Shown here: positions 1,030 to 35,400 of the stretch, piece by piece
Layout of the letters: every line of letters starts with the position of its first letter
Numbering within the stretch: position 1 is the first letter of the stretch
Source: Chitinophagaceae bacterium
Lineage (GTDB): Bacteria; Bacteroidota; Bacteroidia; Chitinophagales; Chitinophagaceae
Reading direction: 5' to 3'
Length of the DNA: 64,000 nucleotides
Assembly: GCA_014379345.1 (NCBI GenBank)
Contig: JACMLY010000030.1
Span: 1 to 64,000, forward strand
Position numbers and translations under genes: made by a program
The notes under the pieces: generated by a model
The model's database searches: none
Seen by the model: the letters and a program-made list of their open reading frames with translations, nothing else
Told to the model about the DNA's origin: nothing

Positions 1030-1082
1030 TTGTGTCGTAGTGTCTTCGTGGCTAAAAATTTCCACAAAGGCACGAAGACACA
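1030..1082. repeat. Interspersed palindrome, 'cttcgtggc' family
   Basis: An imperfect inverted repeat has a left arm TTGTGTCGTAGTGTCTTCGT and a right arm ending GCACGAAGACACAA; 18 of 22 arm positions pair. It fills the gap between the GH2 gene and the sulfatase. Relatives lie at 4089-4131, 22597-22656, 25759-25818 and 35337-35400. Confidence 0.75.
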
Positions 1083-1125
1083 AAAAGGACAAATGACGCG
1101 ATGAATACATTTTTTTTGCAAACAT

Positions 1126-4100
1126 TTAGTGAAGAAAACCAGGCTTTTCATAAATCTCTACTTCTATAATGCTTAACGTTCCTGGTGCTTTTGCATCATC
1201 ACGTGCAACCCCATCATCCAGTTTTTTTCCAGATACTTCAACCATTGTATTCCCTCCTTCATCCTTCGAAAGAGTTGCCAGTTGTATCCTTATCTTTTTT
1301 CCTTTTTGCGGATTGCAGATGATCGTATAATACCCCAGGCTTGGCCTGGTGGTGCCGGCAAACGCTTTTTTTCCATCAACCGTGATCACCAAAGGATAAA
1401 CACGTGACCGGAAATTATTCAGTTTTAACGTGACTTCGCTTACCGTTGATTCTCTTTCCAGTTCATATTCAATCCAGGCAGTTGATAATTTTCCGTCGTT
1501 TACCCAGTCTGATAGTTCATTATCATCATAGCTTTGAAATGCTGTGTCTGCATGGGCGCCTGCGGTGGCTGCGATAATAGCAATGGGCATCCGGGTGATC
1601 GTATAGGAGGGTGTTAATGGGGTAGGACCTCTTTGCAAATTACAGGGCAGGCCAGCCGAAGATAAAATTTCTGTTAATCCATTTTGTACAGGAAATGCTT
1701 TTGTAGTTAATGTTAACATCGAACTTTTCAGTCCATTCGTGCTGGCTTTGATCGTTATCTTGCCGGGCGTAGTTGTTGATCGTATCAACACCCGGTTCAC
1801 TCCATTTTCAACCGGAAGAATTTTCGAAAGAACATAATTGCCGGGGCCCTGCGCCATTCCGCCTCTCCAATCCGCGGGTCCGTCCATCGTAAAGCGGATC
1901 GTATCCATAGCAGTCGGACACCTGTTTCCTTTCGCATCTATCACCTCTATCTCAATCAAAGAAACATCATGGCCATCAGACCTAAAACCAGTTGGCCTTT
2001 CAATATTAGTTAACCGAAGTGCAACGGGGGGGCCGACCGTATTTATAATGGTTGAACAAATTTGTGTTGCTTTCATATCAAAGCCGGCCGCCGAGATATT
2101 TCCGGGTTTCCATTCTATATTCTTAAAGGTGTAAAGAAAGCCATCGCTTTTTTCTCCATATCCCATGGATTTGCCATTTACTTTCAATTCAACTTTTTCT
2201 GCTGAAGAGATAACATAAATATTCTTTTTTACGCCAGCGGTATAATTCCAATGTCCAACAATATGTATTCCCGGTGTTTCTGGGGTCACCCATCCATTCC
2301 ACATGACCTGGTGCGCATAGAAGTTTTGCTTTTTAATTCTTAACGCATCCACCTCACCACTTCGACGATAATTTTCCGCACCACGGTGATGGGTATTGGT
2401 TTCAGAAAAAATAATATTGACACCGCCTGCACTTACCCGCTTACCAGTGCCCGGTCGTTCATTCCAGAACTCGAACCAGCGTTTCACATTTTCCACAGCA
2501 TGCGATTCCATGTTACGATTGTATGACGAAGCATTTTGCCCATTGTAAAGGGGACCATCCCCATCCTTGTGATAAGGTGGTGAAAAATCATCCCAGTATT
2601 TTCGAAGGCCCTCATCTCTGGAATACTCGGTAGCCCACAGCGGGATATCAGCGCTTTTGTTAGTATATAGCATTTCACCTCCATATTCTGCTGTTTTGCT
2701 ATCCAGCATTTCGCGTGACCCGATCGCTCTTCCCCCGTGTGGATCAAACTGGTCGCGAATGCTTATCATTTCTTCCATATGCTTTTCCCTGATGGACTCA
2801 TTTCCGCATTCGTAAAAAATAATGCTTGGATTATTTTTATTGTAAATGATGGCATCGCGCATAACCGCTTTTCGTTGTTCCCATCTTACGCCGTCTACAT
2901 CTCGTTCAGCATCGCCTGCTGGCATGGCCTGCATCAATCCAACCCGATCGCAACTTTCTACATCCTGTTTCCACGGCGCTATATGCATCCATCTAACGAG
3001 GTTGCCATTGCTTTCAACCATCAGCTTATTACTATAATCGCTCAGCCATGCAGGAACCGATAATCCAATAGCAGGCCATTCATTGGAAGTGCGTTGTGCA
3101 TAACCATGAACGAGTATCACGCGATCATTAAGATAGATCATACCATCCTTAAAAGCGGTTTTACGAAATCCTGTTTTCGTATTTACGATATCAACTGCCT
3201 TACCCGCGATCTTTACAATAGTTTGTACATTGTACAGGTAACCATATCCCCAACTCCAGAAGTTCAATCCGTTTACGATCGAGGCTGCTTTCAGTATTTT
3301 CATTTCACCCGCAGCGATAGGGATTTTATCACCACTAAATGTTTTCACCGGTTTATTATTCAGATCCGTAATGACAACTTCATATTGGAGTTCCTGTACC
3401 CGACCGGTTTCATTTTTAATTTCGGATTCCGTATGTATTGTTGCCGTTCTTTCTTTCACATCGAAATTATCGGCATATATAGTTACACCTGTTGTTCCCA
3501 GGTGTGTAAATAAAGGAAGCGTCTGGTACAGCTTCGAAGTAATATGGAGAAAAACATTTTTATTGATGCCTCCATAGTTTGCATTGAAATTTTTGTCTTC
3601 CCATTGAAATTTTGTACTGGTAGCTTTTTCTTTATATTCCCAGTCATTATCGATCCTCGCTGCGATCAGGTTTTCCTGATCGCCGAATTTTACAAGGTCA
3701 CTAATATCAAAGCCGAATGCGGTTACTCCGTTCTCATGGATACCAATATGCCTGCCGTTCAGATAGAAATCGCCGGCCTGGCGAATTCCTTCAAATTCCA
3801 GGAAAACTTTTTGTCCTTTCTGCCCGGCGGGGATTTTAAACTTTTTACGATACCAGGCAATGCCTGTTGAAAGCTCCCGGATATCTTTTTTAAATGCTTC
3901 GTCTTCATTCCATGCGTAAGGAAGGGTTACGTTTTTCCAGTTACCATCGTTAAAGTCAGGCTCTGAAGCTTCCGCGTTATCCCCAACAAAAACTTTCCAC
4001 CCTGGGTTGAAATTGTATTTTACACGTTGTGCGTTTAGAGTCAGAGTAAAGAATAAAAAACATATACCTACCAGAAGTTTCCTTCGCACCTTCGCGTCTT

Positions 4101-4164
4101 TGCGGGATATATTCGCGCGAAGACGCGAAGGCACAAGGGAGAATAATGTATTTTGTATGGTCAT
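1126..4164 (-). CDS. Secreted GH2 family glycoside hydrolase (beta-galactosidase-like)
   Basis: 1012 residues. An N-terminal jelly-roll sugar-binding domain (about 55-215, with FYLNGRHIGIHENGVTAFGF typical of GH2) precedes an Ig-like domain, a TIM barrel and C-terminal Ig-like and carbohydrate-binding modules. The barrel carries a likely acid/base Glu in FYECGNES and a likely nucleophile Glu in IIFSETNTHH. In an RG-I locus the probable job is removing beta-galactose or beta-glucuronate from side chains; specificity is inference. The start at 4164 is the only ATG upstream of the signal peptide (LLVGICFLFFTLTLNAQ), but it gives a 29-residue leader before the hydrophobic core, and part of that leader is encoded by a palindromic repeat at 4089-4131. 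It lies 17 bases downstream of GH105, so the two are probably cotranscribed. Confidence 0.9.
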   Translation of the reverse strand: MTIQNTLFSLVPSRLRANISRKDAKVRRKLLVGICFLFFTLTLNAQRVKYNFNPGWKVFVGDNAEASEPDFNDGNWKNVTLPYAWNEDEAFKKDIRELSTGIAWYRKKFKIPAGQKGQKVFLEFEGIRQAGDFYLNGRHIGIHENGVTAFGFDISDLVKFGDQENLIAARIDNDWEYKEKATSTKFQWEDKNFNANYGGINKNVFLHITSKLYQTLPLFTHLGTTGVTIYADNFDVKERTATIHTESEIKNETGRVQELQYEVVITDLNNKPVKTFSGDKIPIAAGEMKILKAASIVNGLNFWSWGYGYLYNVQTIVKIAGKAVDIVNTKTGFRKTAFKDGMIYLNDRVILVHGYAQRTSNEWPAIGLSVPAWLSDYSNKLMVESNGNLVRWMHIAPWKQDVESCDRVGLMQAMPAGDAERDVDGVRWEQRKAVMRDAIIYNKNNPSIIFYECGNESIREKHMEEMISIRDQFDPHGGRAIGSREMLDSKTAEYGGEMLYTNKSADIPLWATEYSRDEGLRKYWDDFSPPYHKDGDGPLYNGQNASSYNRNMESHAVENVKRWFEFWNERPGTGKRVSAGGVNIIFSETNTHHRGAENYRRSGEVDALRIKKQNFYAHQVMWNGWVTPETPGIHIVGHWNYTAGVKKNIYVISSAEKVELKVNGKSMGYGEKSDGFLYTFKNIEWKPGNISAAGFDMKATQICSTIINTVGPPVALRLTNIERPTGFRSDGHDVSLIEIEVIDAKGNRCPTAMDTIRFTMDGPADWRGGMAQGPGNYVLSKILPVENGVNRVLIRSTTTPGKITIKASTNGLKSSMLTLTTKAFPVQNGLTEILSSAGLPCNLQRGPTPLTPSYTITRMPIAIIAATAGAHADTAFQSYDDNELSDWVNDGKLSTAWIEYELERESTVSEVTLKLNNFRSRVYPLVITVDGKKAFAGTTRPSLGYYTIICNPQKGKKIRIQLATLSKDEGGNTMVEVSGKKLDDGVARDDAKAPGTLSIIEVEIYEKPGFLH
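4089..4131. repeat. Palindromic repeat inside the GH2 coding start
   Basis: Arms CCTTCGCGTCTTTGCG (4089-4104) and CGCGAAGACGCGAAGG (4116-4131) pair at 15 of 16 positions around an 11-base loop. It belongs to the 'cttcgtg-ctt' palindrome family that elsewhere occupies only intergenic gaps. Here it is read in frame and supplies part of the basic stretch ISRKDAKVRRK ahead of the signal peptide. Confidence 0.8.
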
Positions 4165-4181
4165 TATTAAAAGTTGGAGAT

Positions 4182-5312
4182 CTATTTCATTTTGTACACT
4201 TCCATTCCTGCAAGTAAAAAGCAGCCTAAACCATAATCTTCAAAGTCAGGTGTATTGGTATATGACACTGGTTGTCCATCCTTTGGTTCTTTACCTGTTC
4301 CCTGTACAAAGCCCAGCTTGCCGTCGGGATGCACACAGTCCTTCACCATAGCATTCCATGTTTTGGATACTACGGGTGCGTATACTTTTTTTTCGAGTAG
4401 ACCATTGTTTATACCCCAGGCAAAACCATAAATGAACAAGGCAGTGCCGCTTAATTCCTTTCCGCCGAAATTGGTTGAATCATGCAGGCTGACATTCCAA
4501 AATCCATCGCTTCGTTGGACGGGCAATAAGGCTGCGCACATATCCTGATAATCCTGTAAGTATTCAGCGTAATGCGGATCTGTTTTTGGAAGCATCGCCA
4601 ATGTTCGTACCAATGCTGCTATTACCCAGCCATTGCCGCGGCTCCAATAGCAATCTTCGCCATTAGGTTCTTTGTAAGGTGGCACAAAGTCCTTATCCCG
4701 CCACCATAGTTTTTCTGTTTGATTGTATAATCCTGTTCCGCCGTGATTGTATTTTGAGAAGTTGTATATGTCATACATCTTTCTGTAATAACTCGTGTCA
4801 TTATACAATATGCCCAATCTTACAAATACCGGCATGGCCATTTGCAATGCATCTATCCAGTTCCAATCATCTTTTTTCTCACTCTGAACCATATTGTCGA
4901 TCGAGGTCTTTATGGCAGTGATCCGCTCGGTTTGTTTGTCGATCAGGAAGAGGTCGATATAAGTTTGTCCACAGCATTGGTCATCCGCGTTTCTTGTATT
5001 TACGCCGCTTCTCAAGCCCCATTTGTGTTTGGTTCCCCAATCGACCGCATAGTCATAATATGCTTTGTTTTTATCGATATTGTACAGGGCCATCAGTCCT
5101 TCATAATATACAGCCCTTGTCCAGATATTACTCGGTCTTTCACGATTGGTGATGATCGATTTTCCCGGGTCTGGCCATTTATTCATGAAATAGGAGTTAG
5201 CCAAACGCATAGAAGCTAGAATCTTTTTTTTTGCGGGAAGCTTTTGCGCTTCTGACTGCTGAAGAGAAACAAAAATCAATGATAATAATAACAGCAAATT
5301 TTTACCTTTCAT
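4182..5312 (-). CDS. Secreted GH105 unsaturated rhamnogalacturonyl hydrolase
   Basis: 376 residues. GH105 enzymes remove the 4,5-unsaturated galacturonate left at the non-reducing end after lyase attack, here the expected follow-up to PL11. The product has a signal peptide (MKGKNLLLLLSLIFVSLQQS) and the (alpha/alpha)6 family motifs: NADDQCCGQTY around residue 120-130, containing the likely catalytic Asp, and WSRGNGWVIAAL around 220-230. Length matches YteR/YesR-type enzymes. The ATG at 5312 is preferred over an in-frame TTG two codons upstream. GH2 follows after 17 bases. Upstream is a 158-base gap with a 59-base palindrome. Confidence 0.95.
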   Translation of the reverse strand: MKGKNLLLLLSLIFVSLQQSEAQKLPAKKKILASMRLANSYFMNKWPDPGKSIITNRERPSNIWTRAVYYEGLMALYNIDKNKAYYDYAVDWGTKHKWGLRSGVNTRNADDQCCGQTYIDLFLIDKQTERITAIKTSIDNMVQSEKKDDWNWIDALQMAMPVFVRLGILYNDTSYYRKMYDIYNFSKYNHGGTGLYNQTEKLWWRDKDFVPPYKEPNGEDCYWSRGNGWVIAALVRTLAMLPKTDPHYAEYLQDYQDMCAALLPVQRSDGFWNVSLHDSTNFGGKELSGTALFIYGFAWGINNGLLEKKVYAPVVSKTWNAMVKDCVHPDGKLGFVQGTGKEPKDGQPVSYTNTPDFEDYGLGCFLLAGMEVYKMK

Positions 5313-5404
5313 GTGCAAGCTGATTGATGAACGTATAAATCAATCCCGATGATAATGGATAAAATCGATTAAATCATCCTGTAATATCCTGTTTAAAAAA
5401 GTCT

Positions 5405-5463
5405 GCCACTAATTACACGAATTATCACGAATTCAATTCGTGTCAATTCGTGTAATTAGTGGC
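5405..5463. repeat. 59-base near-perfect palindrome, 'cgaatt' family
   Basis: Arms GCCACTAATTACACGAATT (5405-5423) and its exact reverse complement (5445-5463) enclose a second inner palindrome (CACGAATT/AATTCGTG). It sits 8 bases beyond the stop of the 715-residue enzyme gene and upstream of GH105. A close relative lies at 11984-12038 in an equivalent position. There is no T-run typical of an intrinsic terminator, but the stem is strong enough to form in RNA. Confidence 0.85.
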
Positions 5464-5470
5464 TGGTCTT

Positions 5471-7618
5471 TTAGGGCATTTTTTTTAATCCTTCCCACTT
5501 AACTTTCCATTTGCCATTTTTGGGAATGCCGGGATTGATCTCCTTTGAGCCATCATATCCTGCACACATCATTGCCACGGCCGTGAGCAAACCTCCATTA
5601 CCGGGGAGGTAGAGTCGTAGGCGATCGTCCTGGTAATTGTGTCCATTTGGGAGATAGGTATTGGTTTTAATATTCATCAGTAAGGCATCAATTGCTTTTT
5701 CGGGAAGTCCGAGCCTGGTGGCAGTCATCGCCGTCATAGGAAAATCCCAACCCCAGGTATCGTTCCAACTCCAGTTGGTCCAAACCAGGTTGAAAGTCTT
5801 GCTCATTATTTTTTGATCCACCATTTTGCTGGCGGGCAATATTCCCAATGCGCCCAATACTGAAGGGTGATCTGTTCTATAATCCGGATTTGTATAAGAA
5901 TCAGGAGCACTTTCTGCAGCGAGGTAAAAATTATTCTGGACGGGAAGAGGTGAAAGCTTTTTCAACACTGAATCCCATTTTTTTTGCCTTGGCATTTTTA
6001 ATCGTTCTCTCCATTCCTGCGCCATCGACAGAGCCCAATGCCAGTACGCCAACTCATAGGTGGGATTGAATGTTTCCTCCGGTTTAAATCGTTCCTGTGC
6101 CGGGATCAATCCCTTTCCTAAAATGAACCTGTCTTTTTCTTTTTCATAAAAGGCGTAAGACGCCATGAAATCGGCGGTAGCAAAGACAAGATTTTTGTAT
6201 TTGTTCAAAGTCCGGAGATCTTTCTTTTGGCGATGAAGCAATTCAGCAAAATAAATAAAGTGAGGTTGTTGCCATATTAAAAACGATCCTACGGAAGATG
6301 GGCTTTCTTCTCCCGCATTATCCGTCATTTTTTGCCAGCGTATTCCCTGATAACCCTGGCGGGATGCGATCTTTTTTGCATTTTTTTCTGCTATCGCATA
6401 CCAGTCCACGCTTTTTTCTAACAGATGTGCTCTATCCCACAATGCAAAATGAACGCCATGCCACCAGTGCATTTCCAGGTGCGGCTTGCCAAACCAGCTG
6501 TTATAGGTAAGACCCGTTTCCTGAGGAGGATAAGAGCCGGCGCATTGAATTTTTGTAAGATATTGCGATAAAACAACCCGCCTTTCCAATTCATTCGCTC
6601 TCGGATCAGTGCTGCCGCTAAAATCGATGGCGGCTCCGCGATTCCAGAATTGCTGCCATTCTATAATACTATTTAGTTCTGTGAGATAAAAATCAACAAC
6701 GGGTTGCAATTTTTTATTGGGCGAGAACCGGCAACTAAAGGCGAACATCGTCTGGTCCTGCGCAGGAGAAATAACGAAATCATGTTTTTGTTTTTGCGTG
6801 ATCGAGCCATTATTCTTCCAGTTTATATCGATATAGTACCTGGTGGTGTCTAACAGGTGGAGTATTGTGGCTCCATTTGAAATGGTAGTTTCAACGGAGG
6901 TGGTATGTTTGTCAGCATTCGTGTAATTTGTTCCCATATCTGCCCATTCTCCTGTGGGATATGGAAAACGCAGCCTGACCTTTAATCTTCCTTCCCGAAT
7001 CAAATTGGATCTGATGTTGGAAGCGATCTGGTCTTCATCCTGATGGCAGTATGTGGAGACGTCAACGGGAACATTTTCAAGAGTAAAATAACTTTTTATC
7101 TCTCCGGTCCAGGGATCAAGTTGCTGGCGAATGTTTTGGATATCATCTATGCCTGCCGGGGAACCATCTTTCTTAGTCAGTTCAAGGCCTATATTCCCCA
7201 ATTGTAATCGATGAGGATTTTGCCGAAACCAGTTCGCGGCATTTTTATTTCTTTCAGGCTCATTCCATTGAACGCTATAGCTGGTTGTACGCCCGTTCAG
7301 ATTATACTGTTTCAGTGTTTCAACATGTTGGTAACCGGCTACATCAATAAAGCTATGCCAGCCCCATTCAGATTGAGTACCCAGTGCAACTCCTTTTTCA
7401 TATCGTTCGGGAAAAGTTTGCAAACCGGTTGCATCAACCGTAAAGGCAAATTTTCCATTGCCAACTGATAAAGAAGACAAAGGATCAAATGTTGTGACCT
7501 TTACGATATGTCGTTGTACCAATCCCTTCCTGTTTATTACCTGTGCATTCAGAAAGGAGATAGAGAATGTAAAAAAAAGAGCAAGGGATATCCTCCATTC
7601 CGGTATTGGTATTCTCAT
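5471..7618 (-). CDS. Secreted protein of unassigned six-hairpin glycosidase type
   Basis: 715 residues with a signal peptide (FFTFSISFLNAQ). The region after it (DPLSSLSVGNGKFAFTVDAT) looks like the N-terminal beta-sandwich of GH65/GH95-type enzymes, and the region after about residue 330 has the helical, Trp-rich look of an (alpha/alpha)6 barrel (HLEMHWWHGVHFALWDRAHL; NDTWGWDFPMTAMTATRLG). I cannot assign a numbered GH family, and catalytic residues are not obvious. Its ATG follows directly after the TAA of the acetylesterase gene (TAAATG), so translation of the two is probably coupled. Between CE12 and GH105 in an RG-I cluster it is a candidate exo-acting enzyme on an RG-I oligosaccharide or side chain; this is inference. 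Confidence 0.85.
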   Translation of the reverse strand: MRIPIPEWRISLALFFTFSISFLNAQVINRKGLVQRHIVKVTTFDPLSSLSVGNGKFAFTVDATGLQTFPERYEKGVALGTQSEWGWHSFIDVAGYQHVETLKQYNLNGRTTSYSVQWNEPERNKNAANWFRQNPHRLQLGNIGLELTKKDGSPAGIDDIQNIRQQLDPWTGEIKSYFTLENVPVDVSTYCHQDEDQIASNIRSNLIREGRLKVRLRFPYPTGEWADMGTNYTNADKHTTSVETTISNGATILHLLDTTRYYIDINWKNNGSITQKQKHDFVISPAQDQTMFAFSCRFSPNKKLQPVVDFYLTELNSIIEWQQFWNRGAAIDFSGSTDPRANELERRVVLSQYLTKIQCAGSYPPQETGLTYNSWFGKPHLEMHWWHGVHFALWDRAHLLEKSVDWYAIAEKNAKKIASRQGYQGIRWQKMTDNAGEESPSSVGSFLIWQQPHFIYFAELLHRQKKDLRTLNKYKNLVFATADFMASYAFYEKEKDRFILGKGLIPAQERFKPEETFNPTYELAYWHWALSMAQEWRERLKMPRQKKWDSVLKKLSPLPVQNNFYLAAESAPDSYTNPDYRTDHPSVLGALGILPASKMVDQKIMSKTFNLVWTNWSWNDTWGWDFPMTAMTATRLGLPEKAIDALLMNIKTNTYLPNGHNYQDDRLRLYLPGNGGLLTAVAMMCAGYDGSKEINPGIPKNGKWKVKWEGLKKMP

Positions 7619-8395
7619 TTATTTGAAAAATTTCTTCAATTTAAGAGATTTGATCTCTCTAAGGGAATTTATTACAATATCCGCATTGATTTTTGCACCA
7701 TCCAGGTTGGTATGCGTATGATCTGCAGGAAAGAAAGGCTTTACTTTATCAGGCCCTATTTCTTCATACTTTGACGCAATAAGGTTATTCAAATCGATAA
7801 AATAGGCCGCTTCGTTGTCAGCCACTTCTTTTGCCCATTTGCTATAACTATCGGATGACCTGACGACTTTGCCGTCCCTCCAGTCATTTCGGGGAATCGG
7901 AGAACAAACAATGGCTATTGCTTTTTTTTCTTTTGCCTCCCTGATATATTTCCGCATATACCAACCGTAAGTATGCACAACTTCTTGTTTTTTGGTGATG
8001 GGGTCATAAATTTCTTTTGATTCTTCGCCGATTCCCCTGATCGTGCCCCTTGCACGGGCTGTATCATCCAAGGGGCCGCCATCATTGTGTCCGAATTGCA
8101 TGATTACGAAATCCCCTTTTTCAAGATCTGCCACAATTTTATCCCATCGGCCTTCCGTAATAAAAGTCCGGCTGCTTCTTCCTCCAATGGCAAGATTTCT
8201 TACGCTTATCTTACCGGTATCAAAATAATCTGCGATAAAACTACCCCAACCCCATTGTGTATTCCTGCTGGAACCATCACCATTACGAACAGTGGAATCT
8301 CCTATGATATAAAATACCGGCTTATCTTTTTTCAGCATGATAAAAGAAGACAACGTGATCATCAACAGCACCAAAACCGATAATTTTCTAATCAT
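7619..8395 (-). CDS. Rhamnogalacturonan acetylesterase (SGNH/GDSL, CE12-like)
   Basis: 258 residues with a short N-terminal signal or anchor segment (VLVLLMITLSSFIML). All SGNH blocks are present: block I IIGDSTVRNGDG with the nucleophile Ser at about 34, block II with the Gly of NLAIGGRSS, block III MQFGHNDGG with the Asn, and block V PADHTHTNLDGA with the Asp-x-x-His pair. CE12 enzymes remove acetyl groups from galacturonate of RG-I, which clears the backbone for lyases and hydrolases. It lies 55 bases downstream of PL11 and abuts the 715-residue enzyme gene with no spacer, which fits a joint RG-I deconstruction operon. Confidence 0.93.
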   Translation of the reverse strand: MIRKLSVLVLLMITLSSFIMLKKDKPVFYIIGDSTVRNGDGSSRNTQWGWGSFIADYFDTGKISVRNLAIGGRSSRTFITEGRWDKIVADLEKGDFVIMQFGHNDGGPLDDTARARGTIRGIGEESKEIYDPITKKQEVVHTYGWYMRKYIREAKEKKAIAIVCSPIPRNDWRDGKVVRSSDSYSKWAKEVADNEAAYFIDLNNLIASKYEEIGPDKVKPFFPADHTHTNLDGAKINADIVINSLREIKSLKLKKFFK

Positions 8396-8450
8396 ACTTA
8401 AATCATTGATTTTATTTTTTGAGAAGTGGCTGGCAACGGAATTACTCCGG

Positions 8451-10337: not shown

Positions 10338-10443
10338 TTTGTTGAGTTATGCTTTAATTGAATCGAAATTCTGCTGGCTTAATGTATTGATTGATCGCAG
10401 GGAATTATTGAACTCGTCAAAGAAACCGAATGAATAACACCAT

Positions 10444-11907: not shown

Positions 11908-11983
11908 GGCGGAGCAATCTTAAGGCAGTAAAATAGTTCTTCTAAACCTTGTGGCTATCCTGACGCATCCTGTTAAAGGTTTT

Positions 11984-22596: not shown

Positions 22597-22656
22597 GGCA
22601 CAAAGACACAAAGTAAAAGGGTTTCTGATGACTTCGTGTCCTGATGCCTTTGCGGC
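22597..22656. repeat. Degenerate 'cttcgtg' palindrome
   Basis: GGCACAAAGACACAAAGT and ACTTCGTGTCCTGATGCC are imperfect reverse complements (13 of 18). The element fills most of the 115 bases between the GH28-like and GH106 genes. Confidence 0.55.
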
Positions 22657-24639: not shown

Positions 24640-24689
24640 TTTTATTTTCCGGCGATGTTCAAGAAAACTGTGTTAGAAAATAATTTCTC

Positions 24690-24790: not shown

Positions 24791-25010
24791 TTTGTTATTG
24801 TCAACAAGAATTGCATCCTCTTAGGCTTCAAAAGATTTAGAGTAACTTTCAAATAAAAATAATCGTCCCGCAAAAGTTCAACTCCGCAGATGCCAATCCA
24901 TCAATTTTATTTCATATAGTGGAATTTAGGAATGTTCGCCTAAAAAGTTACAGATAAAATTTAAGGCCTGGAATCAATGACATTGCGTGGGGCAGAATGT
25001 CAATAACGAG
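24791..25010. other. Intergenic stretch with nothing recognised
   Basis: This 220-base part of the gap between the small lipoprotein and the DinB-like gene is AT-rich. I see no convincing reading frame, promoter or repeat in it beyond the palindromes on either side. Confidence 0.5.
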
Positions 25011-25066
25011 AAATCTTGAAGGTCTTACCCGGATTTTAACGTCCGGATTTCAAACCTTCAAGATTT
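25011..25066 (-). repeat. Hairpin downstream of the DinB-like gene
   Basis: AAATCTTGAAGGT (25011-25023) and ACCTTCAAGATTT (25054-25066) are perfect reverse complements, and an inner CCGGA/TCCGG pair makes a second stem. It begins 14 bases past the stop codon of the minus-strand gene. It could end transcription, but it lacks a clear U-run. Confidence 0.65.
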
Positions 25067-25079
25067 TTATAACCGACGA

Positions 25080-25577: not shown

Positions 25578-25758
25578 ATAATTTGTTTTATGATACAAAG
25601 TAACACCCGGCTATTGACAACCCTATGTCAGTATCTATTATGGTGAGAAAAATATTTAAAGAAAAGCAGTATCAAATTAGTTTGAAAACACCCTGTATCT
25701 TTAGAAAGAATCATAATTTGTTAGTTCGTTGTGTCTTTCTTTGTGTACGTAGTAGTTT

Positions 25759-25818
25759 CCTTTGTGTCTTAGTGCCTTCGTGGCAAAAAAGTTGCCACTA
25801 AGTCACTAACACAAAGAA
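25759..25818. repeat. 'cttcgtggca' palindrome
   Basis: CCTTTGTGTCTTAGTGCCTT with CGTGGCAA on the left faces TTGCCACTAAGTCACTAACA with CAAAG on the right. It is a strong member of the palindrome family, lying between the divergent DinB-like and propeller lipoprotein genes and close to the latter's start. Confidence 0.75.
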
Positions 25819-25866
25819 AGGCATGAAGAAAGCAGCTGATTAAACCTTCACGATATAAACAGAACT

Positions 25867-26862: not shown

Positions 26863-26908
26863 CTTTGCTCTTCGATTCATAAATTTATTAACTATGATCC
26901 TTGTATGT

Positions 26909-26954
26909 TCTATGATCCCATGTGGCAAATTTTTTTCACCACACAGGATCATAG
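26909..26954. repeat. Palindrome, 'ctatgatcc' family
   Basis: CTATGATCCCATGTGG on the left and CCACACAGGATCATAG on the right pair at 14 of 16 positions around an A/T loop. It lies between the convergent ends of the propeller lipoprotein and the 363-residue lipoprotein gene. Confidence 0.75.
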
Positions 26955-26981
26955 AAACATAGGACAAAACATAGCAATTGT

Positions 26982-28073: not shown

Positions 28074-28089
28074 TCCGGGAAACTGAAAT

Positions 28090-29193
28090 TTATAAATTGG
28101 TATCATTGGCTGTCCACAGATCAACGTCGCCATTTGTTTTCTTTTGCAGAACCAATACCTGGGTATTATCTAGTTTATCCAATTGAAGTACATTGGTCAT
28201 AGGCAATGCTGTAAAATTAACTCCTGCGGTACCCTTTACCGGTTCAGTCAAAGTTCCTTCAAACGCCCCAATGTTTTTATAGTTGACTTTTGCTACGGGG
28301 TGTTTAGTGTTGGCCATCATTAAAAAAGATTCATTGCCCGCTGTTAGCGTTATCATATCGATTGGAGAATTACCGCTTCCCATTTCAGCAACTGTTCTTC
28401 CCTTTACATGAGCACCTGGCTTCAATTCATCCAAAGAAAAAAGCACCAATGGGGTGCAGGTATAACTGGCCACCAGATATTTCTTTCCATTTATTTCAGC
28501 AGTAGTAAAAGTTCTGATAGGCGCAGAGGTCTCATATTTTCCATGAGCTGCATGATATATCTCAAGGGTTGATTCATCCTGTTTGCTCGTGAAGGGATAC
28601 GGAATGCTTTTAAAAGAAGAACTGAACTCATGGTTTGATAAACCGCTAACCATCAATTTTCCATCCATATATCCAAGATCAGATATCGAAGAAATACGTA
28701 ACGGTCTTCCCCGATGGTCTTTTGCATCTTCAGCAGGCGCATTGTTCAATACTACGGAAGTATAACGCAGATCCTTCACCGGAACTGCCTCGATCTTGTC
28801 TCCGGTCAATGTCAGCAACACCGGAGTACCATCACTATTCTGTACGGCCAGGTATATTTTTTTTGAGAGCGGATTCACTGCCATATCCACGATGGTAATA
28901 TTCGTAACCTCGGTGCCTAAAGCTGCCGCTATCTTCTGGTCGATATTCTTCATTTCCACTGCCGCAGGCTTTTTGTTCTGCTTTATATCTTTTGTGTTAA
29001 CAGCGAATACCGTTGCGCTTTTAGAATCTCCCACAAACAGAATTCCATCAGGTCCAAAACTTAGCGAGCTAATGGATTTGATCTCAGGGCCCACCAACAT
29101 GGAATTATTTTCAGAAGGCGGAGTGGTAGCTGCAAATAAAAATAACCCGGCAACAGCAGCAACCAGGTAGAAATATGTCTTTTTCATATTCAT
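28090..29193 (-). CDS. Secreted propeller-like protein, unknown function
   Basis: 367 residues with an N-terminal signal (YFYLVAAVAGLFLFAATTPP). The body has propeller-like repeats: ISSLSFGPDGILFVGDSKSA, IVDMAVNPLSKKIYLAVQNS, LGYMDGKLMVSGLSNHEF and YLVASYTCTPLVLFSLDEL. It resembles NHL/SMP-30-like beta-propellers by pattern only. No catalytic residues can be named. A TATATTTG promoter element is readable 47 bases upstream of the start. The downstream gene, a lipoprotein with Ig-like domains, follows after 16 bases. Neither has an obvious tie to pectin, although they sit inside the cluster. Confidence 0.8.
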   Translation of the reverse strand: MNMKKTYFYLVAAVAGLFLFAATTPPSENNSMLVGPEIKSISSLSFGPDGILFVGDSKSATVFAVNTKDIKQNKKPAAVEMKNIDQKIAAALGTEVTNITIVDMAVNPLSKKIYLAVQNSDGTPVLLTLTGDKIEAVPVKDLRYTSVVLNNAPAEDAKDHRGRPLRISSISDLGYMDGKLMVSGLSNHEFSSSFKSIPYPFTSKQDESTLEIYHAAHGKYETSAPIRTFTTAEINGKKYLVASYTCTPLVLFSLDELKPGAHVKGRTVAEMGSGNSPIDMITLTAGNESFLMMANTKHPVAKVNYKNIGAFEGTLTEPVKGTAGVNFTALPMTNVLQLDKLDNTQVLVLQKKTNGDVDLWTANDTNL

Positions 29194-29239
29194 GCGGTTT
29201 TATATTGAATAAAATAAAAATTGGAGCGTAAGACGATAC

Positions 29240-29247
29240 CAAATATA
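29240..29247 (-). promoter_or_regulatory. Candidate -7 element (TATATTTG) for the secreted propeller gene
   Basis: An exact match to the Bacteroidota consensus TAnnTTTG on the minus strand, placing a start of transcription around 29233 and giving a leader of about 40 bases before the ATG at 29193. Confidence 0.4.
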
Positions 29248-29368
29248 ACGATCATAAGGCTGAAAAGTGCGGAAAAGTTAGAAAGAGACAATCCAATGCA
29301 CTTGAACTTCTTATTTAGTTTTCTTGTGATAGCGCTCTTCTTAAATTCAGATCTTTATCATCGTCCAA

Positions 29369-29607
29369 AAAAACTCCGTCAGGAGTTTACTCTTTGTAGA
29401 AAAGACATCCCAACCGTGGACCCGCTCCGTAGGAGCGGCATCTTTAAATGATACGTGTGCAATAAACATTTTTCGTCAACTCGATTTAAAACTTTTTCAA
29501 AAATTTGAGATATTCCTGCAAGGAGAGATGGTGCTCCTACGGAGCACATCTCTGGCTGTGGGTTGGTCTATAAAGATTACACCCCGATGGGGTGTTTTAA
29601 ATTCGGT
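29369..29607. repeat. Modular palindromic repeat cluster, copy 1
   Basis: Four palindromes are arranged in a row: AAACTCCGTCAGGAGTTT (29371-29388) followed by CTCTTTGTAGA; CCGCTCCGTAGGAGCGG (29422-29438) followed by ATCTT; GTGCTCCTACGGAGCAC (29531-29547), with an inverted TTGCAGGAATAT and TTGACGAAAA module beside it; and ACACCCCGATGGGGTGT (29579-29595). The same modules recur, in other orders and orientations, at 59981-60485. The rest of the 645-base gap between the PL22 and propeller genes (29608-29838) shows nothing I recognise. Confidence 0.85.
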
Positions 29608-29838
29608 TTTAAGCGAAAAATTTTTGTTGATCCTACCGGTTATTCAATCAGTTAATGTTTGTGGAAACAGGCCAGAGCATTAGGACATCATTCTTTTTCT
29701 TCTATTATACTTTCACGATTTATGTCGGGGGCACCTCCAAGTAATTCAAAAATTTAAGAGGACCTCCCTCTTTCACAAAATGGACAAAGTCAGTTGAGAT
29801 GCGGACACAATTTGTGACGGCATAGATAATAGGCCAGA

Positions 29839-31212
29839 CTATTTTTTATAGGAACGTTTTAGCCATTCCTCTGGAACGCCGATGATACAGATATTCATTG
29901 ACCGGTTATTCTCCGACAGCATTGCAGACTGGATCTGTATTTTTTCCCCATCCGGGCTAAAAGTGGGATGAGGATGATCTGCAGCGGTCGTTTTATGACC
30001 GGTGGAAAGCAGGATCATTTCCTTTGTATTCCTGTCTATCAAATAAAGGCTACGGGAAAAGTCATCTCCTACAGCCCATCGACCGTCTGGCGATCCGTGA
30101 ATATGCCAAAGACCGCTGCCTGTGGTCGTTTGACCGACGATCAACATTTCACGGGTCCGTAGATTAACAATACCAAGCCCGGTAGGTTTTTCGCGTGTGC
30201 CGGAGGGCCCCCATGCATTTTCCTGCCCCGGATTTTGAGGATCGCTTGCGCGGCGTGCAGTATCTGTTCCTTTTTGAAAATTTATTTTCCTGTGGCCTAA
30301 AATAGCAATAGCTACTTCATCTTTTGAAATAACAGCTTCGTGCGTAACCCATTCGTAGTCCGCTTCAGGATATAACGGCCGCAGCCCGCTGCCGTCGGCC
30401 ATCACCGTCCAGGTCCGCTGTGGAGATTTTCCGCCTGTTTCCCAGCAGAAAACGATCTCGCCGGCGTTCCATGGGTTTGATTGAATATGTCCTACCTGGA
30501 AAGGCACTGAAACAATATGTTTCAACTCACCGGTTTTGATATTCATGCGGGCAAGACCGGCAGGTCCGGCGCCCATATTCCGGGGCCCAAACATTTCAGC
30601 GATCTTTGTACCAGGTGCCAGGTATTTCGCTGCTTCGGTTTTACCTACCCGAAAGTATACCCACTCTTCGTCCCCATCCAGTGCCATGTCGCCGCCGGCA
30701 CCCATTTGAGGCGGCGTTATGCCACAGATACGCTGGTACACCGTTGAAGGTTTTAAATTTCCTGCTTTACTGTCTACAAATAATTTTTCAAGATCAACTT
30801 CAATAATTTGCAATGAGCGGTCACTATTGCGGTCTTGCCCTGACTGTATTGTTGTGTTCCGCATGAAATATAATTTCATTGATTTTTGGGCAATGCATAA
30901 CATACCACTGAATCCGCCTTCGGAAACCTGTACTATATCACCTGTCTTTTCATTCACTGCCATTGCTTCCCCTTTTACTCGGTCAGAACGGAAGATAAGC
31001 CATTGGCCATCTGAAGTCCATTGGGGATGGGTAGGATAAATTTTGGAGTCGCCCTTGGGTGTACTCGTAAGAAAAACAAGTGGTGTGCCGGTTACCGGGT
31101 CTTTTACAACTTTTCGCTCAGAAGGAAAGCGGGTACCGATCTGCGAATACAGGCCGGAGAAAATTACCAATGACAAAATGGTTATGAAAAAGCAAATTTT
31201 TAGTCTAGGCAT
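29839..31212 (-). CDS. Exported PL22-like oligogalacturonate lyase
   Basis: 457 residues. PL22 enzymes act on short galacturonides, splitting dimers and trimers by beta-elimination within a seven-bladed propeller with a metal bound by His and Gln residues. Candidate ligands are visible: VGHIQSNPWNAGEI, LWHIHGSPDGRW and ADHPHPTFSPDGEKIQIQS. The ATG at 31212 starts MPRLKICFFITILSLVIF, a signal peptide ending LYSQ; the longer in-frame start at 31308 would put 32 charged residues ahead of it. Most described PL22 enzymes are cytoplasmic or periplasmic, so the signal peptide implies action in the periplasm. Upstream lies a gap with palindromes and a broken GH29 gene. Confidence 0.9.
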   Translation of the reverse strand: MPRLKICFFITILSLVIFSGLYSQIGTRFPSERKVVKDPVTGTPLVFLTSTPKGDSKIYPTHPQWTSDGQWLIFRSDRVKGEAMAVNEKTGDIVQVSEGGFSGMLCIAQKSMKLYFMRNTTIQSGQDRNSDRSLQIIEVDLEKLFVDSKAGNLKPSTVYQRICGITPPQMGAGGDMALDGDEEWVYFRVGKTEAAKYLAPGTKIAEMFGPRNMGAGPAGLARMNIKTGELKHIVSVPFQVGHIQSNPWNAGEIVFCWETGGKSPQRTWTVMADGSGLRPLYPEADYEWVTHEAVISKDEVAIAILGHRKINFQKGTDTARRASDPQNPGQENAWGPSGTREKPTGLGIVNLRTREMLIVGQTTTGSGLWHIHGSPDGRWAVGDDFSRSLYLIDRNTKEMILLSTGHKTTAADHPHPTFSPDGEKIQIQSAMLSENNRSMNICIIGVPEEWLKRSYKK

Positions 31213-31324
31213 AAAATCGTTTATTTTTTTTGAAGTCCGGCAATTGAGGAGGTCATGGCATTTTCTAAGGTAATGCGTTTTGGCATTAATTTTTTTTTGA
31301 TGACGCAAACGATTGCAAGGACTT

Positions 31325-31380
31325 TGTCATGCTTCATTGTTTACCTGTGTCCGCCCCAGGGTAAACAATGAAGCATGACA
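31325..31380. repeat. Perfect 21-base inverted repeat
   Basis: The left arm at 31325-31345 (starting TGTCATGCTTCATTG) and the right arm at 31360-31380 are exact reverse complements separated by 14 bases. A related but decayed motif, GTCATGCTGTGATAGGAAGC, follows at 31427-31446. The stretch 31381-31560 shows nothing else recognisable. Confidence 0.8.
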
Positions 31381-31560
31381 GTTAAAAAGGAAGGTTACAC
31401 AAATGACAAACATCCCTCCCAATCCGTCATGCTGTGATAGGAAGCATCTGAGAGACCTGAACCTTCGGAGTTTTATAGAGAAAGTTATACTCATTTAGCA
31501 TGTTCCAGAATATACAAACAGAGGATTATTTTATTCCGGTCCGTACATCTGCCATTCCAA

Positions 31561-31848
31561 TTAGGGGGGTTGGGCTTCTTTATTTTCAATCACCAACCTG
31601 AAGTATTGAGTGGTAACCGGCTTGAAATTTGCCCCTGTTCATGATCCATTCACCGATGCCGGCAACTTGTTTTTCATTGTTAGTACCCGCAGGAACAGCA
31701 TATACGCTCCAATGAATAAACATTCCAACCTTGGCATCTTTCTACCATTTCATTCTATTTGAATCGGCGGCTGATTGCGCTGTTTGTGCATTGATCATGT
31801 GAATACATGTTGCTGAAAAATCACTACAAGAATCATTTTTTTCATCAT
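31561..31848 (-). pseudogene. Relic of a GH29 alpha-L-fucosidase gene
   Basis: Reading from ATG 31848 gives MMKKMILVVIF, then a one-base slip restores a signal peptide (SATCIHMINAQ) and the GH29 opening: RMKW, an in-frame stop where Trp is expected, then KDAKVGMFIHWSVYAVPAGT and IGEWIMNRGKF. Homology breaks off after about 90 codons. Another frame then gives PVTTQYFRLVIENKEAQPP before a TAA at 31561, which looks like the C-terminal domain end of a different glycosidase. So the relic has a frameshift, a nonsense codon and a deletion joining unrelated ends. It lies 119 bases downstream of the Gfo/Idh gene and near GH95, so an L-fucose-releasing function was probably lost here. Confidence 0.8.
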
Positions 31849-31967
31849 GATAATTTGATTTTTTTGTTGTGGTTATCTTTGTGTATTCGCGTCTTCTAAT
31901 CGAAAATTTTTCAGACTTAGTAGCCCTCAGGAATATTTTATTCTTTATTCATTTCAGAAATCCTGCC

Positions 31968-32957
31968 TCAAAACTTCACCCATGCGCCTTGCTTTGCGCT
32001 TTCGGAGATCACTTCAATTACTCTCATATTATTTACAGCATCTTCAAGTGGCGTGGGTACACTGCTATTATTTAATATTGATTCGGCGAAAAGACTTCCC
32101 TGGATCGTATACTGGTCGACCGCATCAAAGACAATTTCTTTAACCTCGTTTTTTGAATGAAGCCAGATCCTGGTAGATTTGTCGGGCGGCGCATTGAAAG
32201 GGATTTCTATTTCGATGCGAGCTTCGGTACCCAGGATATTTACACGCTGGTAAGGCGTTAGTTGCGTAGAACAGGTGAATGTAGATGTCTGCCCGCCAAA
32301 ATCAAGTATGCCGGATGCAAGCCGGTCGGTTTGTAGTGTTGGATCCAATTCAATAATTCCAAAAACCCTTTCCGGTTCCTTTGCGAACATAAATCTTGCC
32401 AGCGAAATGCAATAGCAGCCTATGTCCATCATGCCACCCCCGCCTGCAGCTTTCTGGTTGCGGATATTTTGCGGATCAATATTGTAATAAGAAAAAAAAC
32501 TTTGGATGGTTTTGAGCTCACCGATCGCTCCATCTGTTACTAGCTTTTTTGTGTGCTGCCACTGCGGATGGAACCTGTACATAAAAGCCTCCATTACTTT
32601 TAAATGAGGTTTTTGCCGTGCAATGGTTACTAAACGCATTACTTCTGCGGAAGACAGACCGATAGGCTTTTCACACAACACATGTTTGTCTGCTTCAAGG
32701 CATTTAATAGCCCATTCTATGTGCAGGTGATTGGGAAGGGGAATGTAAACAGCATCTATCACCGGATCTCGCAACAAGGCATCGTATGAATCATAAATCT
32801 TTGGTATGTTCAGGCGCGCAGATTCCGCCTGTGCGCGCTCTTTGTTTGTGGAGGCAATGGCAACAATCTCGCAAAATTCGCTTCCCTGCATAGCAGGAAT
32901 TACTTTTTCACGTGCAATTTTAGCAGTGCTTAAAATCCCCCAACGAACTTTATTCAT
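31968..32957 (-). CDS. Gfo/Idh/MocA family NAD(P)-dependent oxidoreductase
   Basis: 329 residues, no signal peptide, so cytoplasmic. The N-terminal Rossmann domain begins MNKVRWGILSTAKIAREKVI. It contains CEKPIGLSSAEV, the family's EKP motif with the catalytic Lys, at about residue 95, followed by the C-terminal alpha/beta domain with GGMMDIGCYCISLARFMF, including a conserved Asp and a Cys where many members have His or Tyr. Substrates in this family are sugars and sugar derivatives. It is 34 bases downstream of the mutarotase gene, pointing to one monosaccharide pathway, most likely L-fucose or L-rhamnose oxidation; that is inference. Confidence 0.9.
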   Translation of the reverse strand: MNKVRWGILSTAKIAREKVIPAMQGSEFCEIVAIASTNKERAQAESARLNIPKIYDSYDALLRDPVIDAVYIPLPNHLHIEWAIKCLEADKHVLCEKPIGLSSAEVMRLVTIARQKPHLKVMEAFMYRFHPQWQHTKKLVTDGAIGELKTIQSFFSYYNIDPQNIRNQKAAGGGGMMDIGCYCISLARFMFAKEPERVFGIIELDPTLQTDRLASGILDFGGQTSTFTCSTQLTPYQRVNILGTEARIEIEIPFNAPPDKSTRIWLHSKNEVKEIVFDAVDQYTIQGSLFAESILNNSSVPTPLEDAVNNMRVIEVISESAKQGAWVKF

Positions 32958-32991
32958 AAATTGGTTGCCGTTTAAAACTATGTCGTTGAAT

Positions 32992-33327
32992 CTATAGTTG
33001 AAAAATCTTATCCATTAATATCCATTTTTCGCCTGGTTTGGCCCACGGTAATGGTTGCTGAAACTTCCACATTAATTTTTCCCATTCCTGCACTTTTGGG
33101 TTTTCTAAATCCATAATCGATTTCTTTTCGAAACTGAAGTCATCGGTTGTTTCCATGATCATAAACAGGCGATTTGCGGTACGATAGATCTCCATACTGG
33201 TAATTCCTGCATCGGACATGCTTTTTTTTATCTGCGGCCAGGCATTTTCAGTTTTATGCCAATGCTCGTATTCCGCGATAAGCGCCTGGTCGTTGACAAG
33301 GTCTAGCGCTAAGCAATATTTTTTCAT
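32992..33327 (-). CDS. L-rhamnose/L-fucose mutarotase family protein
   Basis: 111 residues, the size of the DUF718/RhaM family. Members interconvert alpha and beta anomers of L-rhamnose, and some act on L-fucose. The pattern is typical: YCLALDLVNDQALIAEYEHW with His in the acidic/His segment (EYEHWHK), ITSMEIYRTANRLFMIMET, and a C-terminal PWAKPGEKW segment. It is cytoplasmic, with no signal peptide. The neighbouring oxidoreductase, GH95 and the GH29 relic favour fucose, while GH106 favours rhamnose; I cannot decide. It is the first gene of a two-gene operon with the Gfo/Idh oxidoreductase. Confidence 0.85.
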   Translation of the reverse strand: MKKYCLALDLVNDQALIAEYEHWHKTENAWPQIKKSMSDAGITSMEIYRTANRLFMIMETTDDFSFEKKSIMDLENPKVQEWEKLMWKFQQPLPWAKPGEKWILMDKIFQL

Positions 33328-33452
33328 AGCAGGGTATAGTTTATATAAAAAAACTGGATCATCATTTCAATCCGGGCTGGCCCAAAAAAAGAACTTCCGG
33401 AAAGATTATTCATAATCTTTTATCTTAAAAACCGGCAGCAAATACATGATCG

Positions 33453-33623
33453 GTGAAAGTATATAAAAATACAAAAGCTGGTAATTATTTTCCGTATAAT
33501 ATATATCTGTACCATCAGGGATTTGCGGAAAAGTTGAAGGAAGACAAAGAACCCGAAGAAGACTCTCGCATACTAATGCAATTATATCGGTTTTATAAAA
33601 ACGATTTGGTCATTCTTGTTTGA
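33453..33623 (+). CDS. Possible small ORF antisense to the GH43 3' end
   Basis: A 56-codon frame from GTG 33453 reads VKVYKNTKAGNYFPYNIYLY then HQGFAEKLKEDKEPEEDSRI and ends after VILV, overlapping the last codons of the GH43 gene on the other strand. The composition is protein-like and charged. There is no clear ribosome binding site, and chance is possible in AT-rich DNA. It might be a fragment of an older gene. It fills most of the 282-base gap, where nothing else is seen. Confidence 0.2.
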   Translation: MKVYKNTKAGNYFPYNIYLYHQGFAEKLKEDKEPEEDSRILMQLYRFYKNDLVILV

Positions 33624-35214
33624 TGTAATTGTAACGGAAGAAATCCACGTCTATATGACCTTCGTCGGTTTTGTTATTATAACTGAAAATGCCTAGACGA
33701 TCGCCTCTATAAGAACCCCACATCATTTGATAAGGATCGCCGAAGGGTATATATGAAAAACCATCTGTGCTGTAAAAATATAAGCTTTTGCCATCTAATC
33801 CCCAGGTTGACTTCAGCCATAAAATATTTCCGGTGAGCACGGGCCCTTCTGTTATTATTCCTTTTAAATTAAATTCCAGGTTTTTTGTATTGCCATTGCA
33901 CGCGACTCCGATGGTAGAATAATTGGGTGACCCGAAATGGGTCAGCCCGGCTTTTTGTCCGTCCGCCATTCCGCTGATGTCTAATTTTATAATTACTTCA
34001 TTTCCATCCGTACGAAATGAGCGTTGTGTTATGGTATTACCTGCTTTCAGAAGGTTGTTTGAAATAATCGGTTTAAAGGCACGAAGTCGTAACCATCCGG
34101 GTCTTTGCGTCAATGACCACTTATCTGAACGTGGATGATAGTTCCATTCCCATTGTGGCGATAGAATTTTTTTACTAAATTCATCACTTGCTTTAGGGGT
34201 AATAACTTTTGACCGATCTACCGGTATTTTGCCCGACCATACCATTCGCCCAATGCCATCCTCACCAATTTCTCCAATAACAGGCCAACCATCTACCCAG
34301 CTAACCGGAAGAAGGCTCATCACACGACCCGACCAATCACCCGTGCCATGATGGGTAAGAAAATACCAATCGCCTTTTTGGGTTTGAACAATCCCACCCT
34401 GGTTAGGTTCATTGAATTGTTTTTGTGCATGGCTGAGTTGCCTGAGTTCTGTATAAGGTCCCCGGATATTTTTTGACCTTTCCATCATGATCGCACGACC
34501 AGACGGCTTCACTTCACTAAAAAAATGGTAATACGTGCCATTGATCTTATAGAGTTTGTTCGCTTCACTGCCTTTGGATTGATAGATCACTTTACCGGAC
34601 TCCCTGAAGATATTTTTTCCGTCGGCTGTCAGCTTGAAAAGATGGATTTTATATCCATCACTAAAATTTGTTCCTATTAAGTAACCCTGGCCATCATCAT
34701 CCCAGAAAGGACAACAATCATCCCATCCTTTTTCTGCCATGACCTGGTGTAAAGGCTCCCATGGGCCTGCTGGATTTTTGGCGGTGGTCATAAAATATCC
34801 TTCATCAGGAGTACCAAAGTATATCCAGAATTTTTTATTATGATAACGGATAGCCCCAGCCCAGATGCCCCGCCCATACCTGTTCATTTTATCCCAGTTC
34901 ATTTCAGCTGAGATTTGCGTGATATCCGTTACAGCATGACCTAAAACAGACCAGTTCACCAGATCATTTGAATGAAGTATGATAAATCCCGGCGAGTATT
35001 GAAATGTTGAGGATACCGCGTAGTAATCGTTACCGACACGGATGCAATCAAGATCGCTGTAGTCAGCGGGAAGGATTGGATTCATATAGGTGCCGTTTCC
35101 CTGATCGCCCCAGGTCTTCCAATCACCCCATTTACGCGATAAGCTGTCCGTCTGAGCTAACACATTCAATAAAATAAAACTTAAGGCAATGAAAATGATT
35201 ATTCTTCGGTACAT
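33610..35214 (-). CDS. Secreted GH43 arabinofuranosidase/xylosidase-like enzyme
   Basis: 534 residues. After the signal peptide (ending NVLAQ), GTYMNPILPADYSDLDCIRV holds the catalytic-base Asp, the middle WDDCCPFWDDDGQGYLIGT holds the pKa-modulating Asp, and YQSKGSEANKLYKING holds the acid Glu. Residues about 20-330 form the five-bladed propeller and 350-534 a beta-sandwich of the concanavalin-A type (WNYHPRSDKWSLTQRPGWLR), as in the xylosidase/arabinofuranosidase subgroup. In this locus an arabinan or xylogalacturonan side chain is the natural target. It is downstream of GH95 on the same strand with a 309-base gap holding two repeat remnants. Confidence 0.94.
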   Translation of the reverse strand: MYRRIIIFIALSFILLNVLAQTDSLSRKWGDWKTWGDQGNGTYMNPILPADYSDLDCIRVGNDYYAVSSTFQYSPGFIILHSNDLVNWSVLGHAVTDITQISAEMNWDKMNRYGRGIWAGAIRYHNKKFWIYFGTPDEGYFMTTAKNPAGPWEPLHQVMAEKGWDDCCPFWDDDGQGYLIGTNFSDGYKIHLFKLTADGKNIFRESGKVIYQSKGSEANKLYKINGTYYHFFSEVKPSGRAIMMERSKNIRGPYTELRQLSHAQKQFNEPNQGGIVQTQKGDWYFLTHHGTGDWSGRVMSLLPVSWVDGWPVIGEIGEDGIGRMVWSGKIPVDRSKVITPKASDEFSKKILSPQWEWNYHPRSDKWSLTQRPGWLRLRAFKPIISNNLLKAGNTITQRSFRTDGNEVIIKLDISGMADGQKAGLTHFGSPNYSTIGVACNGNTKNLEFNLKGIITEGPVLTGNILWLKSTWGLDGKSLYFYSTDGFSYIPFGDPYQMMWGSYRGDRLGIFSYNNKTDEGHIDVDFFRYNYIKQE

Positions 35215-35336
35215 GGGTTTAAATCGATTTTACGGGGTGTCAGCATTCGTGTTCTTCATGCCTTCCGTTGTGTTCTTAGTGAATCCTTGCTGGTAATTAA
35301 GAAGGTTCACAAAAAATCTTTAGATCAGAACGCCTT

Positions 35337-35400
35337 TCTTTGTGTCCTTTAGTGACCTGGTGGCAATCTCTTTTGCCACGAAGGCACCAAGACACAAAGG
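35337..35400. repeat. 'cttcgtggca' palindrome
   Basis: TTTGTGTCCTTTAGTGACCT with GGTGGCAA faces TTGCCACGAAGGCACCAAGA with CACAAAGG. It lies in the 309-base gap between the GH95 and GH43 genes; the remainder of that gap (35215-35336 and 35401-35523) holds only a decayed similar segment around 35241-35276. Confidence 0.75.

Follow-up and report, generated by a model that had tools for sequence, protein, structure and literature searches.

A probable family of non-autonomous dispersed elements with arms of tandem 8-nt units, common to bacteria and phages

A stretch of 64,000 nucleotides from the genome of a Chitinophagaceae bacterium (assembly GCA_014379345.1, contig JACMLY010000030.1, positions 1 to 64,000 of the forward strand; hereafter the window) contains copies of a short inverted-repeat element. 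Its arm is TTNGTGNC-TTNGTGNC-TTNGTGGC, that is, three tandem 8-nt units with 20 fixed letters and five free (N) positions, the last unit ending in GTGGC. Copies were numerous and intergenic, often lay near gene 3' ends, extended to many phyla as well as to phages, and were present at some orthologous places and absent from others. They probably represent a unit-armed dispersed element family that is non-autonomous and common to bacteria and phages. The family behaves like repetitive extragenic palindromes (REPs), yet it lacks some defining features of REP/REPINs and their REP-associated tyrosine transposases (RAYTs) that were tested. We think it somewhat probable that these short inverted-repeat elements are placed in trans by a factor other than a RAYT.

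The host genome (Bacteroidota, 5.14 Mb) contained 96 half-sites with at most two mismatches to the arm, 53 forward and 43 reverse, and the arm pattern read backwards, used as a control, had no match at this threshold. Exact arms numbered 39, compared with ~2.5e-5 predicted from base composition. Around the half-sites, 64 clusters were defined (all places except C57), comprising 42 inward copies (GGC ends inside), 10 outward copies and 12 single arms. None of the 64 lay inside an open reading frame (ORF) of at least 100 aa, as called by our own ORF caller; a short palindrome with many extragenic copies is a feature shared with REPs. The 63 clusters that could be placed lay between co-directional genes in 33 cases, convergent genes in 22 and divergent genes in 8, while window gaps of at least 60 bp were co-directional in 17 cases, convergent in 5 and divergent in 5. 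Among neighbouring gene ends, 39 of 77 3' ends and 8 of 49 5' ends were within 50 bp of a cluster. Groups of copies within one genome had spacers or flanks in common. In the host, 16 of the 54 non-outward clusters had flank-seed scores exceeding the 99% shuffle level, including those at 25761 and 35341 of the window, a test that is partly circular as the seeds were read off some of the copies themselves. A preliminary description of this DNA had proposed a REP-like, dispersed element with further copies in the genome, and the copy number, the closeness to gene 3' ends, the patchy distribution and the presence or absence at orthologous slots bear this out.

Three clear copies stood in the window, each made of an arm, an A/T-rich loop of 8–10 nt and an inverted arm, with 0–4 mismatches per arm to the 20 fixed letters. 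The copy at 1029–1084 (inverted repeat I6) is an inward palindrome of two three-unit arms, each with one mismatch, around an 8-nt A/T loop. The inward palindrome at 25761–25817 has an exact left arm and three mismatches in the right arm, and its left flank at 25743–25760 on the plus strand, TGTACGTAGTAGTTTCC, is common to other copies (17 of 18 letters of the seed from these copies). In the inward palindrome at 35341–35398, the right arm is exact and the left arm has four mismatches; flanks common to other copies lie on both sides on the minus strand, AAAGGCGTTCTGATCTAAAGATTTTTTGTGAACC at approximately 35302–35340 (31 of 34 seed letters) and GTGTACCTAGTAGTTCCC at approximately 35399–35417 (16 of 18). 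Arm matches in the whole window numbered 4, 6, 9 and 14 at up to 2, 3, 4 and 5 mismatches, respectively, some of them being shifted registers of one arm, compared with 0, 0, 0 and 0–3 in eight simulated order-1 Markov windows.

The preliminary description had placed five spots in one palindrome family marked by a recurring cttcgtggca. The family is real, but this 10-mer and its reverse complement each have a single occurrence in the window, and the two remaining spots are poorer members than the three good copies. The one at 4083–4137 is a weak, diverged inward variant with TTCGCG/TTTGCG units and five mismatches in both arms, a level also attained in simulated windows, and the one at 22597–22656 is a degenerate outward copy (GGC ends outside) with five and three mismatches. 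The former was thought to be coding; it does fall within the first 27 codons of the ORF at 1126–4164, just ahead of a signal-peptide-like stretch, though an inner GTG start would probably make it the 5' leader of this ORF.

Among the 59 genomes of the host and its relatives, 12 carried the arm with at most one mismatch, including 41, 29 and 12 copies in G033, G019 and G010, respectively, and three other genomes of the same genus (G001–G003) had no arm at this threshold. The exact arm was present in 36 of 392 Bacteroidota genomes. The backwards-read control matched one of the 392 (G191, 23 places), pointing to another repeat with a mirror-like word in that genome. In contigs of named genomes, the exact arm occurred in at least 117 stretches, compared with a chance expectation of ~0.5 in the whole collection. 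About 15 phylum-level names appeared among the matches listed (titles of 80 of the at least 117 stretches); the names included Planctomycetes, Bacteroidetes, Deferribacteres, Deltaproteobacteria, Ignavibacteria, Acidobacteria (with Aminicenantes), Nitrospirae, Nitrospinae, Calditrichaceae, Kiritimatiellia, Elusimicrobia, Omnitrophota, Neomarinimicrobiota, Cloacimonadota, WOR-3 and other Proteobacteria. Most of the listed contigs are metagenome bins, in which single matches may be misbinned; named strains with the arm among the matches listed included Desulfonema magnum 4be13 and Flavobacterium pectinovorum DSM 6368.

The 117 listed stretches held 148 exact arms, of which 99 had an inverted partner upstream (outward elements with GCCAC/GTGGC ends), 12 had one downstream and 37 had none within 200 bp; at random places, an inverted arm partner was found in 30 of 351. 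A different arrangement was observed in G157 (contig C15, 220500–222500; L385), where single arms in one direction recur every 41–49 bp as a tandem array of half elements. No description of the arm word and no named family for it was found in open-licence papers of PubMed Central (PMC), subscription papers being outside the search, in agreement with the preliminary description, which had known of no named family.

Exact arms were also found in 75 stretches of virus contigs, with up to 14 half-sites per record in the 10 virus records searched whole. One virus locus, L276, belongs to a tailed phage with portal, head protease, head and tail proteins, and 5 of its 10 scanned proteins had a named function. 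Of two queries against cultured-phage records, one gave three matches at chance level and the other gave none; plasmid records gave none. In the contigs inspected, phage elements often sat closely after a stop codon and ahead of the next ribosome-binding site. The 75 phage loci had 113 arm-bearing junctions, 25 of them divergent and 17 convergent by the same ORF caller. Another palindrome of ~38 bp (TTCGACAGGCTCA...TGAGC...GTCGAA) was observed within the element's arms or spacers, or sharing its slot (junctions 4 and 5 of L254, 6058–6168 of L224, and near 3900 in L243); one junction is common to L238, without this palindrome, and L254, with it, and no duplication was visible.

Homologous junctions in different phage contigs were found both with and without the element, and the flanking genes compared stayed the same. 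Upstream of one phage gene represented by 24 loci, TTNGTGNC stood in the slots of three near-identical phages (L309, L310 and L331). Others of the 24 slots held different repeated words, which we read as GGTTCNNN, GTTGAGTN, AATTCGTG, GCTGACN and CCTAAAAN, and several were short, with 12 nt from stop to start in L323. Slot statistics covered 18 of the 24 slots, six near-duplicates being left out; L311 and L312 nevertheless form an identical pair, and in five cases the slot limits extend into the upstream gene. Eight of the 18 were under 40 bp, and all 10 longer ones had an inverted-repeat or tandem z of at least 3, compared with 8 of 28 gaps of lambda and P2. The tandem z alone reached 3 in 9 of the 10 longer slots vs 1 of the 28 gaps, and inverted-repeat scores of at least 3 were also seen in 7 of these gaps.

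In a second genus (g66, probably Flavobacterium), two slots held arms with at most three mismatches, one in 4 of 18 and the other in 4 of 12 orthologous places, four of the 18 places being rearranged and the 12 being those that could be mapped; each slot set, including the phage set (3 of 24), counts its own seed locus. Random 180-nt stretches carried an arm in 5 of 600 cases. Within the genus of the window itself, 18 kb of the window gave no match in G001–G003, and the slot comparison was thus made in phages and another genus. The absence from orthologous sites that the preliminary description had expected of a mobile element was seen in all three sets.

Occupied and empty slots are compatible with insertion and with in-place change alike. 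In the case of in-place change, slippage, template switching and inter-copy conversion would create and alter period-8 arrays between genes, and the element would not transpose as such. The differing period-8 arrays in g66 slots of different species, and the different words in one slot of related phages, are what such a process would leave. We consider it rather unlikely as an account of the family, as about 15 phylum-level groups (among the matches listed) share one set of 20 fixed letters and filled as well as nearly empty slots exist.

The preliminary description had suggested a single-strand (Y1) transposase as the mover. Y1 matches (Pfam PF01797) were found for two genes of the host genome, in 43 of the 59 relatives and in 13 of 15 element-rich genomes. 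Nevertheless, no arm with at most three mismatches was found in 62 Y1 loci (12, 20 and 30, with a few Y1 genes covered twice); one arm with four mismatches occurred in the Y1 locus L167. Both Y1 genes of the host were without arms nearby, the stronger one (L042) being bordered by a different palindrome family and the weaker one having no arm in the 7 kb around it. The L042 unit itself (1000–2350 of the locus; G000:C134 near 54938) encodes a 153-aa Y1 (RAYT-like) protein with its own palindromes on both sides, which show ATCCC..GGGAT and a GGTAG motif; it is REPtron-like and unrelated to the arm family. Y1 matches were absent from the element-bearing genomes G096 (one contig, 9 exact arms), G389 (4 exact arms) and G027 (6 arms with at most one mismatch), and Y1 presence did not track the element across the 59 genomes (10 of 12 with the arm vs 33 of 47 without, p = 0.48). 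When arm loci were searched for Y1, one weak match was obtained in the 117 listed named loci (L045, E = 7.6e-4) and none in 75 viral and 70 host loci; of the 11 seeds used, one (L031, minus strand) was an antisense frame, and the search still gave 37 matches in Y1 loci.

A Y1 mover was thus not supported, because no arm with at most three mismatches was found in the 62 Y1 loci and three element-bearing genomes had no Y1 match. That the family is a REP/REPIN or terminal inverted repeat (TIR) element, mobilised as single-stranded hairpins by a RAYT or TIRYT (Y1, HUH) transposase, would agree with its size and palindromy, its location at 3' ends, the absence of target-site duplications and the wide occurrence of Y1 genes. 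It is distinctly unlikely in view of the two results above, the lack of association between Y1 and element, and the avoidance of arm pairing in phages described below. The factor is probably not a RAYT/Y1 transposase; a mover may since have been lost, or may escape Pfam PF01797. Target-site duplications, a feature of classical DDE miniature inverted-repeat transposable elements, showed no excess at 2–9 nt around 73 viral and 58 named outward elements, though old or diverged copies could hide them. The neighbour genes of the 117 listed loci, compared without annotation, formed a largest cluster in 16 loci and further clusters in at most 5, and none stood out.

Across 73 distinct phage elements, pairing between the two arms reached 97% at the fixed letters and was seen in 43 of 365 cases (12%) at the N positions, compared with 110.2 ± 8.4 for shuffled arms. 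Averaged by contig (38 phage contigs), N-position pairing was 0.139 vs 0.309 ± 0.036, and in a strictly thinned set (17 of the 73 elements) 14 of 85 N positions paired vs 23.6 expected (P = 0.008). The N positions of paired phage arms avoid pairing, and therefore the letters of the arms rather than a hairpin look conserved there, with pairing disfavoured. In unthinned named chromosomes, pairing was 72 of 290 vs 87.1 (P = 0.02), and with looser arms 88 of 310 vs 94.9; host outward copies did not differ from chance (23 of 50 vs 19.3). Of the 73 phage elements, 32 could be oriented; their mean hairpin energy was −27.7 in the sense strand, −31.9 in the antisense strand, −29.4 for arms re-paired across elements and −49.6 for perfect arms.

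An immobile RNA or DNA signal maintained by host or phage selection, with a function as terminator, processing site or binding site for a protein, would account for the 39 of 77 neighbouring 3' ends within 50 bp, for the phage elements that follow stop codons, and for the pairing of host inward arms, which is above chance (134 of 220 N positions vs 100.1 ± 5.8). We regard it as very unlikely, since most orthologous slots and the same-genus genomes lack the element, pairing is avoided in phages, and no Rfam family reached the gathering score in positions 1–40000 of the window, where three sub-threshold microRNA matches were returned, one of them on 5403–5468.

An integron-like (attC-like) recombination site of gene cassettes, suggested by the location directly after stop codons, strand-asymmetric folding and an excess of integron integrases above cut-off in element-bearing Bacteroidota (17 of 36 vs 90 of 356 others, p = 0.009), is hardly credible: the excess was gone within the two families compared (7 of 9 vs 10 of 17, and 4 of 6 vs 30 of 41), the host genome had no integrase above cut-off, arms occurred in one of six integrase regions at a distance of ~7 kb, and the compared flanking genes were unchanged with or without the element. 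The integron integrase was thus rejected as the mover. Integron integrases exceeded the curated cut-off in 107 of the 392 sampled Bacteroidota genomes, which is above our expectation.

If the copies are placed in trans, the factor would read the arm letters in double-stranded DNA and would set copies elsewhere without target-site duplication; the surviving copies would be those in tolerated slots after stop codons, and pairing of the two arms would be disfavoured in phage operons. Several observations speak against this reading. No mover was found, nor was an excised form or a strain pair differing by a single clean insertion, and several other g66 slots carry different arrays, often of period 8, which fit in-place change too. 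The avoidance of N pairing was not clear in chromosomes: thinned named chromosomes (22 of 58 elements) showed no effect (29 of 110 vs 30.2), and the host inward copies, as given above, tend the other way. In phages, the sense folding energy differs little from the value for arms re-paired across elements, and a G-U deficit and A-C excess relative to pooled arms were absent relative to a side-by-side shuffle (G-U 10 vs 9.9). Perfect palindromes may also have been lost in assembly.

Other features of the window were observed beside the family. The element at 5396–5472 (inverted repeat I1), AATTCGTGTC AATTCGTGTA ATTAGTGGC, which the preliminary description did not list, is built on a 10-nt word and has 38-nt arms that are 84% complementary; its architecture is the same as that of the 8-nt family, and we read the two as kin. 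At 31325–31380 lies an inverted repeat (TGTCATGCTTCATTGTTTACC) that is perfect over 21 nt and has a loop of 14 nt. Seven proteins encoded in 1126–37986 were scanned, and six had Pfam matches, all glycoside-hydrolase-related (GH2, GH88, GH28, GH43, GH95 and GH106), which identifies this part, by its predicted proteins, as a polysaccharide-utilisation region.

Bertels and Rainey (2011, PMC3116915) describe REP/REPINs as short, dispersed, extragenic DNA with two inverted arms as the likely unit and single arms as well, a likeness to the present family. The arms here differ in being built of tandem 8-nt units with no hairpin of their own, in having no linked RAYT (0 of 12, 20 and 30 loci had an arm with at most three mismatches flanking a RAYT (Y1) gene), in avoiding pairing in phages and in spanning many phyla and phages. 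A GTAG- or CGTC-like tag was absent from the arm and flank profile of the 148 arms. Di Nocera et al. (2013, PMC3733652) treat CGTC REPs as palindromes of a REP superfamily without a dedicated transposase and report RAYT-like genes flanked by unrelated repeats. The lack of a dedicated transposase, the possible dispersal of TIRs as dimers and the location of REPs mostly downstream of genes, as given there, resemble our family, whose arm consensus differs in having neither tag. The TIRs described there border RAYT-like genes, whereas in the Y1 loci examined here no such gene had the arm as its terminal inverted repeat. Cluster K mycobacteriophages have start-associated sequences that are likewise imperfect inverted repeats with a variable spacer upstream of phage genes, and orthologous genes of one phage cluster mostly retain them (PMC3203893). 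Unlike these, the arm family is gained, lost or replaced, and is common to bacteria. The likeness to cyanobacterial small dispersed repeats is by description alone, not by sequence; Elhai et al. reportedly found these to be very small, with no mover known.

More tentatively, the family may belong to a distinct class of mobile DNA, namely miniature elements with ends made up of arrayed copies of a 7–10-nt word. Many such word families would compete for post-stop slots in phages and bacteria, each with its own recombinase reading the word in double-stranded DNA, and the free positions in phages would stay unpaired to prevent the folding of messages. Accounts of REP-like DNA usually deal with a single genome or clade. 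The present family offers one exactly definable word across many phyla and phages, with natural occupied and empty slots. If placement in trans is true, the spread of such DNA without a linked transposase would become testable, and the anti-pairing signal in phages would help to tell recognition by letters from recognition by hairpin.

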